This document shows, in pieces, positions 16,784 to 43,956 of a stretch of DNA of 64,000 nt (positions are counted from its first letter, which is position 1; each line of letters begins with the position of its first letter). Both the position numbers and the translations under genes were made by a program. Location: NCBI GenBank assembly GCA_018873225.1, contig JAEILZ010000001.1, positions 8,432,001-8,496,000 on the forward strand, written 5' to 3'. The notes beneath the pieces are model-generated. The model was not told the DNA's origin and ran no database searches. It worked only from the letters and a program-made list of their open reading frames with translations. Origin of the DNA: [Phialemoniopsis] sp. UDSM-2020. Lineage: Eukaryota; Ascomycota; Sordariomycetes; Thyridiales; Thyridiaceae.

Positions 16784-16800
16784 AAAAAAAATCCAAAAAA
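16784..16800 (-). terminator. Pol III T-run terminator of tRNA-Lys
   Basis: On the minus strand T6 (16800-16795) and T8 (16791-16784) follow the tRNA 3' end by about 42-60 nt. A perfect 7-bp palindrome (CCAGATT-G-AATCTGG, 16813-16827) lies in the trailer. Confidence 0.6.
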
Positions 16801-16878
16801 TAATGGTCAAGTTCCAGATTGAATCTGGAGTACCGGGAATTGAGCCCGATACGGGGGTCGAACCCGTAACCTTCAGAT

Positions 16879-16934
16879 ATTTCTTAGTGCCTTCAGGTCT
16901 CAAGATTTTTGAAATTCTTGATCCTTACGCGCTG
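16879..16934 (-). other. canonical anticodon-loop tRNA intron
   Basis: 56 nt inserted one base 3' of the anticodon, the normal eukaryotic position. TAAG within the intron can pair with CTTA of the anticodon, as in standard pre-tRNA substrates of the Sen endonuclease. Confidence 0.85.
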
Positions 16935-16953
16935 TAAGAGTCTGACGCTCTAC

Positions 16954-17012
16954 CTGCAAATCTTGCCGTTAGCATGATGCAAACCATGGTGATGGATGCA
17001 GGGAATACGAAC
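16954..17012 (-). other. 59-nt spliceosomal-type intron inside tRNA D-loop
   Basis: The insert starts GTTCGT, has GCTAAC (16968-16973) about 14 nt before the end, and finishes TTTGCAG. Excising it GT-to-AG restores AATCG|GTAGAGC, the standard D loop, exactly. Length, branch site and acceptor match this genome's mRNA introns. It also has a 6-bp inverted repeat (CCTGCA/TGCAGG) near its ends, so an endonuclease-type bulge-helix-bulge should be considered as an alternative. Confidence 0.75.
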
Positions 17013-17030
17013 CGATTGAGCTAACCGGGC

Positions 17031-40977: not shown

Positions 40978-43956
40978 ATGGCTCGGGACAGAGAAGAGGA
41001 CCGCGATCGGGCCCCGAGCCCTAGCAAACGGCGGCGCCTGAATTTCGTCCCCAACCCGCTGCGCAACGACGACCGCTTCGGCGCCCTCCCATCCCGTGGC
41101 GGTGCAGCTTCTCGACACAACCGCGACCATGCCCCCAGAAATCCGGACATCGTGCCGCCCGAGGCCGGCCTTCCCGACGAGGAGAATGACGCGCTCGACC
41201 GCGACTGGTACACGGGCGACGAGTTCGGCCACACCTTTGGCGACGACTCACACAACCCCTTTGGCTCCTTCGACACGTCGTGGGCCGAAAAGGAGGAGCG
41301 CGAGAAGCAGCTCATCGAGAAGAAGGCCGGGCGCTTCGACCGCATGAGCGCGCGCGCCATGCAGAAGCAGCGCGACGTCGACGCCTGGGAGACGAACCGC
41401 ATGCTGACCTCGGGCGTGGCCCAGCGGCGCGACATGGGCGACGATTTTGGCGACGACGACGAGGGCACGCGTGTGCACTTGCTCGTGCACGAGTTGCGCC
41501 CCCCCTTTCTCGACGGCAAGACCGTCTTCACCAAGCAGCTCGAGCCCGTGCCCGCCGTGCGCGACTACCAGAGCGACATGGCCGTCTTCAGCCGCAAGGG
41601 CAGCAAGGTCGTCAAGGAGCGGAGGCAACAGCGCGAGCGGCAGAAGCAGGCGCAGGAGGCGACCAATATGGCCGGCACCGCTCTCGGCAATCTGATGGGC
41701 ATCAAGGATGACGAGGTCGACAGCGCGTTGGGGCCAGATGAGAAGGAGGGCGGAGCGGCAGACAAAGTCGGGGAGAAGTCCAACAAGTTCAGCGAGCACC
41801 TGAAGAAGAACGAGGGGGCGAGCAACTTCAGTCAGAGCAAATCGCTTAGGGAACAGCGCGAGTTCCTTCCGGCCTTTGCTGTCCGCGAGGACCTGATGCG
41901 GGTGATCCGCGACAACCAGGTCATCATCGTCGTTGGAGAGACCGGGTCCGGCAAGACGACGCAGCTCACGCAATTTCTGTACGAGGACGGCTACGGCCAG
42001 CTGGGCATGATCGGCTGCACGCAGCCCAGGAGAGTGGCTGCCATGAGTGTGGCGAAGCGTGTGAGTGAGGAGATGGAGGTGAAGCTGGGTAGCACTGTCG
42101 GCTATGCCATCCGCTTCGAGGACTGCACCAGCAAGGAGACCCTCATCAAGTACATGACCGACGGCGTGCTGCTGCGAGAGTCGTTGAACGAGCCCGATCT
42201 CGACCGGTATTCGTGTGTCATCATGGACGAAGCCCACGAAAGAGCGCTCAACACTGATGTGCTCATGGGTCTATTCAAGAAAATTCTACAGCGACGAAGG
42301 GACCTCAAGCTCATCGTTACCTCGGCGACCATGAACTCAAAAAGATTCTCCGACTTCTTTGGCGGCGCGCCCGAATTCATCATCCCCGGCCGAACGTTCC
42401 CCGTCGACGTCATGTTCCACCGGTCACCCGTCGAGGACTACGTCGACCAGGCTGTTCACCAGACCTTGTCGATCCATGTGTCGATGGGCCAGGGAGATAT
42501 CCTTATCTTCATGACCGGTCAGGAGGATATCGAGGCGACCTGTGAGCTTCTGCGGGAGAGGCTCGACGCGCTCAACAACCCCCCAAAGCTTAGCATCCTA
42601 CCCATCTACAGTCAGATGCCCGCAGACCTGCAGGCAAAGATTTTTGACAGGGCGGCGCCCGGCGTGCGCAAGTGCATCGTCGCGACCAACATTGCCGAGA
42701 CCAGTCTGACGGTCGACGGCATCATGTACGTGGTGGACGCCGGCTACTCCAAGCTCAAGGTCTACAACCCCAAGATGGGCATGGACACGCTGCAGATCAC
42801 GCCCATCTCGCAGGCCAACGCCTCACAGCGCTCCGGCCGCGCCGGCAGGACGGGGCCCGGCAAGGCGTACCGCCTGTACACCGAGAAGGCGTTCAAGGAC
42901 GAGCTATACATCCAGACCATCCCCGAGATCCAGAGGACCAATCTGAGCAACACGATCCTGCTCATCAAGTCGCTTGGCGTTAAAGACCTGCTCGACTTTG
43001 ACTTCATGGACCCGCCGCCCCAGGAGACCATCACCACCTCACTCTTCGACCTGTGGGCACTCGGCGCCCTCGACAACATGGGCGAGCTGACAGAGCTAGG
43101 CCGTAACATGAACTTCTTCCCCATGGACCCGTCGCTGGCCAAGCTGCTCATCACGGCCGTCGAGTACGGCTGCAGCGAGGAGATGATCACCATCGTGTCG
43201 ATGCTGTCGGTGCCCAACGTCTTCTACCGCCCCAAGGAGCGCCAGGAGGAGTCGGACGCCGCGCGCGAAAAGTTCTTTGTGCCCGAGTCGGACCACCTGA
43301 CCTACCTGCACGTCTACACGCAGTGGAAAGCCAACGGCTACTCGGACGGCTGGTGTATCCGGCACTTCTTACACTCCAAGTCGCTGCGGCGCGCCAAGGA
43401 GGTGCGCGAGCAGCTCGTCGACATCATGAAGGCGCAGAAAATGGACATGGTGAGCTGCGGCACCGACTGGGACGTCATCCGCAAGTGCATCTGCTCCGGG
43501 TACTACCACCAGGCCGCCAAGGTCAAGGGCATCGGCGAGTACATCAACCTGCGCACGAGCGTGACGGTGCAGCTGCACCCGACGAGCGCGCTGTACGGCC
43601 TCGGCTTCCTGCCCGACTACGTCGTCTACCACGAGCTGATCCTGACGTCCAAGTCGTACATGTCGACGGTCACGTCGGTGGACCCGCACTGGCTGGCCGA
43701 GCTCGGCGGAGTGTTCTACTCGGTCAAGGAAAAGGGCTACTCGGCGCGCGACCGGCGCGTCGTCGAGACCGAGTTCAACCGCAAGATGGAGATTGAGGCG
43801 CAGATGGCCGAGGACAAGCGGCGGCACGACGAAAAGCTGGTGGCCGAGTCGCAGAGGGTTGTCAAGAAGGACGCCGGCGCATCGGCGGGCAAAAAGGTCG
43901 TCACACAGGGGTCGGTGCGCAGGCCCGTTATCAAGAAGCGCGGAAGGGGGTTCTAG
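40978..43956 (+). CDS. PRP16: DEAH-box splicing helicase PRP16
   Basis: Single exon, 992 residues. The N-terminal ~300 residues carry RD/RS-like and Prp16-typical text ([57 protein letters not shown]). The helicase core follows: Walker [10 protein letters not shown] near 317, [16 protein letters not shown], motif II DEAH near 415 ([16 protein letters not shown]), motif III TSATMN near 449, and motif [20 protein letters not shown] near 617. HA2 and OB regions complete the DEAH layout. Prp16/DHX38 hydrolyses ATP after the first splicing step to remodel the spliceosome for exon ligation, and proofreads branch sites. Length fits filamentous fungi. The 3' end converges on the acylphosphatase gene with only 157 bp between stop codons. 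Confidence 0.97.

Follow-up and report, generated by a model that had tools for sequence, protein, structure and literature searches.

Inserts with the signals of mRNA introns interrupt 17 tRNA genes in the genome of this fungus, and judging from the sequence it is very probable that they are spliceosomal introns residing in genes of RNA polymerase III (Pol III). For the window, i.e. the whole 64,000-nucleotide stretch of DNA analysed here, the preliminary description had claimed a single tRNA-Lys(CTT) gene with a 59-nt D-loop insert (GTTCGT, GCTAAC, TTTGCAG) besides an ordinary 56-nt intron, and both were located on the minus strand (Table 1). When the two introns were taken out, a 73-nt tRNA with 21/21 cloverleaf pairs and the anticodon CTT was left. 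The claim that a GT-AG cut restores the tRNA D loop was thereby confirmed, with the qualification that 6 of 24 shifted D-loop cuts scored equally well, the D loop being tolerant of shifts. As the intron opens with a G that takes the place of G19, the A box is uninterrupted in the DNA. No tRNA was reported in the window by ARAGORN, or by Rfam at gathering score. The proposed reading, an mRNA-type intron in a tRNA, is supported, and what had been described for one gene now extends to a U6 gene and no fewer than 17 tRNA genes.

Table 1. Features of the interrupted tRNA-Lys(CTT) gene of the window and insert sites in the tRNA genes of the assembly
Feature	Position	Strand	Remarks
tRNA-Lys(CTT) gene	16843..17030	-	3 exons and 2 introns; G1 = 17030, T73 = 16843; 3' half recovered with 0 mismatches
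Exon 1	17013..17030	-	tRNA positions 1-18
D-loop intron, mRNA-type	16954..17012	-	59 nt, GTTCGT...TTTGCAG, between G18 and G19; site and signals shared by 4 paralogues
Branch-site motif CTAAC	16968..16972	-	14 nt upstream of the D-loop intron end
Exon 2	16935..16953	-	tRNA positions 19-37, anticodon CTT
37/38 intron, ordinary	16879..16934	-	56 nt, tRNA endonuclease type
Exon 3	16843..16878	-	tRNA positions 38-73
A box	17012..17023	-	TAGCTCAATCGG; final G is the first base of the D-loop intron
B box	16854..16864	-	GGTTCGACCCC
3' trailer	16801..16842	-	CCCGGTAC complementary to acceptor/T-stem 3' strand (8 bp), then CCAGA...TCTGG hairpin
T6 run	16795..16800	-	likely Pol III terminator
18/19 inserts			Lys(CTT) x5, Arg(CCT), Gly(TCC), Glu(TTC), one Gly(CCC)
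19/20 insert			Leu(CAG)
21/22 insert			Trp(CCA)
25/26 insert			Arg(CCG)
31/32 insert			Cys(GCA)
33/34 insert			Initiator Met
34/35 inserts			Gln(CTG), Ser(GCT)
48/49 insert			Second Gly(CCC)

The assembly searched comprised 44.2 Mb in 11 contigs, from one genome. Going by a single protein, the Prp16 of the window, the fungus is probably a Thyridium-like sordariomycete. The 17 interrupted genes represented 12 anticodons and 10 amino acids, and their inserts, 48-72 nt in length, occupied eight sites (standard tRNA numbering, taken from our cloverleaf parse), none of them the canonical 37/38 position, at which 12 of the 17 genes had an additional intron. Ten inserts lay directly after G18 or G19, where the A box survives, and the A-box pattern was kept in the DNA of 16/17 genes. 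This placement has the look of selection for sites at which an intron can stay.

A scan for the pattern CTAAC...AG...B box at one spacing gave 11 matches as compared to 16 in the reversed control, and at another spacing 5 matches (4 of them interrupted tRNAs) as compared to 9. Since the reversed controls matched at least as often, the counts alone prove nothing, and the strength of the matches is in their tRNA context: of the 11 matches, seven were interrupted tRNAs, two were not tRNA-like, and the others were an anomalous Leu gene and an ordinary tRNA whose D arm contains CTAAC. Further genes were obtained by listing B boxes followed by a T run, fetching the flanks and reading by eye the loci that ARAGORN left without a simple explanation; this recognition had GT-AG in mind, and unlike inserts were possibly passed over. 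Among the loci examined, tRNA genes for Pro, Phe, Tyr and elongator Met were not recognised, being missed by the patterns or otherwise interrupted, and the genome may hold more interrupted genes. The genome-wide Rfam RF00005 list included 2 of the 17 interrupted genes and is no census, because just 63 of 930 candidates had been scored.

All 17 tRNA inserts began with GT or GC, had G at +5 and a CTRAY motif 9-14 nt before the end, and finished with AG; one was of the GC-AG type (GCAAGT). The CTRAY count was 8/17 under a narrower range of branch distances and 17/17 after widening. The motif was present in 11/11 inserts found without its use, the other 6 of the 17 having been found through CTAAC. 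Ordinary 37/38 introns of the same genome were compared, where 5/26 began with GT or GC, 1/26 ended with AG and 0/26 did both; the ends of these introns were set by an automatic parse, which may be 1-2 bases off in some cases (two loci, L037 and L099, showed a shifted anticodon). The loci L015 and L090 were left out of the 26 as doubtful, and the mitochondrial L005 was dropped from the tRNA lists. When the inserts were shuffled (17 genes x 3,000), G[TC]NNG...CTRAY...AG appeared in 3 of 51,000 sequences, and even after multiplying this rate by about ten to allow for shifted cuts, a chance origin of the signals stays well below 1%. A T4 run, a possible brake on Pol III, was found in 2/17 inserts as compared to 1.3 in shuffles, and no depletion of T runs was visible in the 17 inserts against the shuffles.

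Since the boundaries had been chosen by eye, an excision scan was run on 76 B-box loci (71 listed and 5 added by hand, known interrupted genes included), in which cuts of 45-110 nt had to have donor, branch and acceptor, the resulting tRNA was scored, and decoy signals were run likewise. With GT-AG, 14 genes gained at least 2 to reach a score of at least 27, as against none with the decoys. The Gln, Met and Ser genes tied, because in them the insert can be taken for a long intron at 37/38. That long-intron reading was rejected for Gln, initiator Met and Ser, as it gives Thr, Tyr and Thr anticodons, respectively, which mismatch the tRNA bodies. In these three genes the insert lies in or beside the anticodon, and only the GT-AG cut yields an anticodon that matches the body.

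The lysine genes were compared in detail. A search of the assembly with the Lys(CTT) 3' half, allowing up to 3 mismatches, revealed a Lys(TTT) gene and five genes for Lys(CTT), six places in all. Intact Lys(CTT) copies, named beforehand as a finding that would count against the reading, were looked for in this search and none were found: all five genes carried the insert at one common site, and it was absent from the Lys(TTT) gene. The inserts started with GTTCGT, GTCCGT, GTAAGC, GTAAGC and GTATGT and all had CTAAC 10-14 nt from the end. Absence of the insert signals in orthologues had been named beforehand as another finding against the reading; it was checked in these paralogues, where the signals were kept in 5/5 despite differing bodies (pairwise identity 0.47-0.82, as compared to a mean of 0.44 and a 95th percentile of 51% for shuffled pairs). 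The spliced tRNAs were 90-100% identical to each other, and the 37/38 intron was absent from two of the five genes. Pair 28-42 was seen as C-G, A-U, G-C and U-A, and pairs 29-41 and 49-65 also changed on both sides. In a small sample of four distinct rows, 84/84 cells of the cloverleaf paired; slid controls gave 30-49%, and shuffles gave 94% and were as high in 1/500. The number of pairs changed on both sides (n = 3) was reached by 59/500 shuffles, and the other covariation measures by 1 to 21. In six ORFs of the window, AAG was used for 190 of the 228 Lys codons. Scans for interrupted Lys genes by exact pattern gave 0 in virus contigs and 0 in bacterial and archaeal contigs, and are uninformative on fungal relatives.

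Insert-free genes, with which the spliced products could be compared, were present for Leu(CAG), Gln(CTG), Cys, initiator Met, Ser and Arg(CCG) (the last being L088). Spliced Leu(CAG) was identical at 81/81 positions to an insert-free gene that has an ordinary 37/38 intron. Spliced initiator Met agreed at 69/72 with an intact copy starting 227 nt away, and the corresponding values for Gln, Cys and Ser were 69/72, 70/72 and 73/81. Compensatory differences from the intact copies were seen at pair 7-66 of initiator Met and 29-41 of Cys. Searches of the assembly for intact copies, which tolerated at most 3 mismatches over the 3' part, found none for Glu(TTC) (four Glu places, three of them intron-free Glu(CTC)) and none for Gly(TCC) (one place). 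For Trp there was one interrupted gene and one degenerate copy, and probably there is no intact one.

The same type of intron was found in U6. There were three U6 matches, and one of them (L121:1310-1600; G000:C9, near 709155) is a U6 snRNA gene cut by three introns of 55, 58 and 57 nt; without them it reads as the conserved TTTGAAACGATAC-AGAGAAGAT-TAGCATGGCCCC. All three U6 introns had a GT or GC donor, G at +5 and AG, and two of the three had CTRAY. Intron 3, which is without CTRAY, contains the B-box-like TGTTCGATTCC. The other two U6-like sequences (L119 and L120) were uninterrupted and diverged, and are possibly processed copies of spliced U6. It had also been claimed that size and signals of the insert equal those of the mRNA introns of the genome, and this agreed with a small hand-chosen sample of six proteasome and two window introns. 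Proteasome genes were used because intron calling in the window gave just two trusted introns (82 and 91 nt) among 19 unsupervised candidates. In seven proteasome-gene regions, the six introns measured 54-171 nt, all had CTRAY, and their donors were GTAAGT, GTAAGC, GTAAGA, GTGAGT, GTAAGC and GTATGT; they were picked by protein continuity out of many frame-compatible candidates, and in one case a GTGAGC donor (58 nt) would fit the frame as well.

With A box, B box and T run in place, with donor, branch motif and acceptor, and with a coherent tRNA after GT-AG excision, the interrupted genes would be transcribed by Pol III, and the spliceosome, acting in the nucleus, would excise the mRNA-type intron of the pre-tRNA. 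Once this intron is gone the cloverleaf would form, and tRNA endonuclease and ligase would then take out the 37/38 intron where present. We infer this order because tRNA endonuclease in eukaryotes takes its measure from the body of the folded tRNA. If the spliceosome does remove the inserts then, no intact copies having been found, the cell is likely to rely on it for its tRNAs for Lys(CTT), Glu(TTC) and Gly(TCC), and probably for Trp. As to origin, insertion into transcribed RNAs by reverse splicing followed by copying back, which has been proposed for the U6 introns, appears most likely; it suits the data because introns occur in both U6 and tRNAs. The introns would survive where the internal Pol III boxes stay intact.

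The inserts could instead be ectopic tRNA introns cut by a tRNA splicing endonuclease of altered or relaxed specificity, as in red algae and archaea. Such introns are known in archaea, Cyanidioschyzon merolae and the Guillardia theta nucleomorph, in the last often without a defined bulge-helix-bulge (PMC3978253, in the part drawn on here), and the frequent co-occurrence with a 37/38 intron (12/17) would suit such an enzyme. We consider this very unlikely, as a strict 4-bp central helix was seen in 0/20 inserts (2/20 reached 4/4 in the loosest register of a simple complementarity test), and as the GT/GC-AG ends and branch motif of 17/17 inserts and the same-type introns in U6 would be left unexplained.

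That the interrupted genes are pseudogenes or recent insertions, the work being done by intact copies, is still less probable. Insert-free genes do exist for the six tRNAs named above and three loci (L015, L086 and L100) appear decayed, but searches allowing 3 mismatches in the 3' part gave no intact gene for Lys(CTT), Glu(TTC) or Gly(TCC), and for Trp the second copy has degenerated. Moreover, compensatory changes maintain the cloverleaf of the interrupted genes, and the insert signals are kept while the bodies diverge. The resemblance to mRNA introns would also be expected if RNA polymerase II transcribed these loci as spliced non-coding transcripts from which the tRNA is released. The A-box pattern in 16/17 genes, the presence of the B box, and T runs close behind many of the tRNAs, right after position 73 in Arg(CCT) and Gly(TCC), make this the least credible of the alternatives.

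Introns of the mRNA type are known in the U6 snRNA genes of fungi, Schizosaccharomyces pombe and others. These likewise are spliceosomal introns in a Pol III transcript, and the U6 of the present genome has three, but here the hosts are also tRNA genes, at least 17 of them with inserts at eight sites, and 12 of the 17 have a tRNA-endonuclease intron too. Group I and group II introns occur in bacterial and organellar tRNA genes and, like the present inserts, lie outside the 37/38 endonuclease system, but inserts of 48-72 nt are far too short for either ribozyme. To our knowledge, the known tRNA introns are removed by tRNA endonuclease or by self-splicing. Nuclear tRNA introns are given as exclusively 37/38 in the portion of a review used here (PMC3978253); the 26 such introns counted in this genome are also intervening sequences in nuclear tRNA genes, but differ from the inserts in site, in ends and in presumed machinery. 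The ectopic introns of archaea, C. merolae and the G. theta nucleomorph resemble the inserts in that they are found in the D arm and at further non-canonical sites, with two or more in some genes (PMC3978253 and PMC8450103, as far as used here). In the same portion of the review, those of algae and archaea are described with bulge-helix-bulge motifs, or in Guillardia often with no defined motif (PMC3978253), whereas the present inserts have spliceosomal signals and no strict central helix. Among the matches listed in a search of open-licence papers by titles and abstract starts, there was no report of spliceosomal introns in nuclear tRNA genes. Such genes may have been missed because tRNAscan-SE 2.0, in the part of its description used here, limits eukaryotic tRNA genes to one intron and handles non-canonical introns in archaeal mode (PMC8450103). 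The window gene, missed by both tools applied, illustrates that tRNA finders can miss needed genes. If our reading is true, a spliceosomal class would be a further kind of tRNA intron, tying translation to the spliceosome. It would also test whether the spliceosome can act on Pol III RNAs other than U6 that are short, uncapped and structured, and the set of intron gains at defined sites in abundant RNAs would make it possible to test reverse splicing as the way in which introns arise.

The 3' trailer of the Lys(CTT) genes was a further feature. Complementarity of 7-8 bp to the acceptor/T-stem 3' strand was present in all five genes, and the pairing covaried among them (GTATCGGG/CCCGGTAC and GCATCGGG/CCCGATGC); the second hairpin, CCAGA...TCTGG, was read by eye in four. 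Complementarity of at least 7 was found in 2/66 other B-box loci, both with wobble pairs. Length favoured the Lys genes in this comparison, since four of their trailers exceed most others and so offer more chances of complementarity. We speculate that the trailer may delay tRNA folding until splicing. A joint reading, which we offer tentatively, would be that spliceosomal introns invaded the Pol III gene set of this lineage, that decoding of AAG, GAA, GGA and UGG became spliceosome-dependent, and that the Lys trailer may keep the precursor from folding as a tRNA before the spliceosome has acted. If true, the trailer would be a switch ordering two splicing machineries on one small RNA.

Some other loci came to notice. 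L015 (around 1430-1600; G000:C1:2349182) is Leu(TAG)-like and has GTGAGT...CTAAC, but its tRNA sequence picks up again ahead of the AG, and no GT-AG excision restored a tRNA in the excision scan. L086:730-830 and L100 are degenerate Trp-like and Gly-like tRNA copies and, like L015, have a decayed look. Two related tRNA-like loci, L036 and L090, possess B boxes and T runs, and their isotype was not assignable. At 40978-43956 on the plus strand, the window also encodes the spliceosomal helicase Prp16 in a single ORF; the protein shares 95% identity with one of Thyridium curvatum and 83% with one of Phaeoacremonium.
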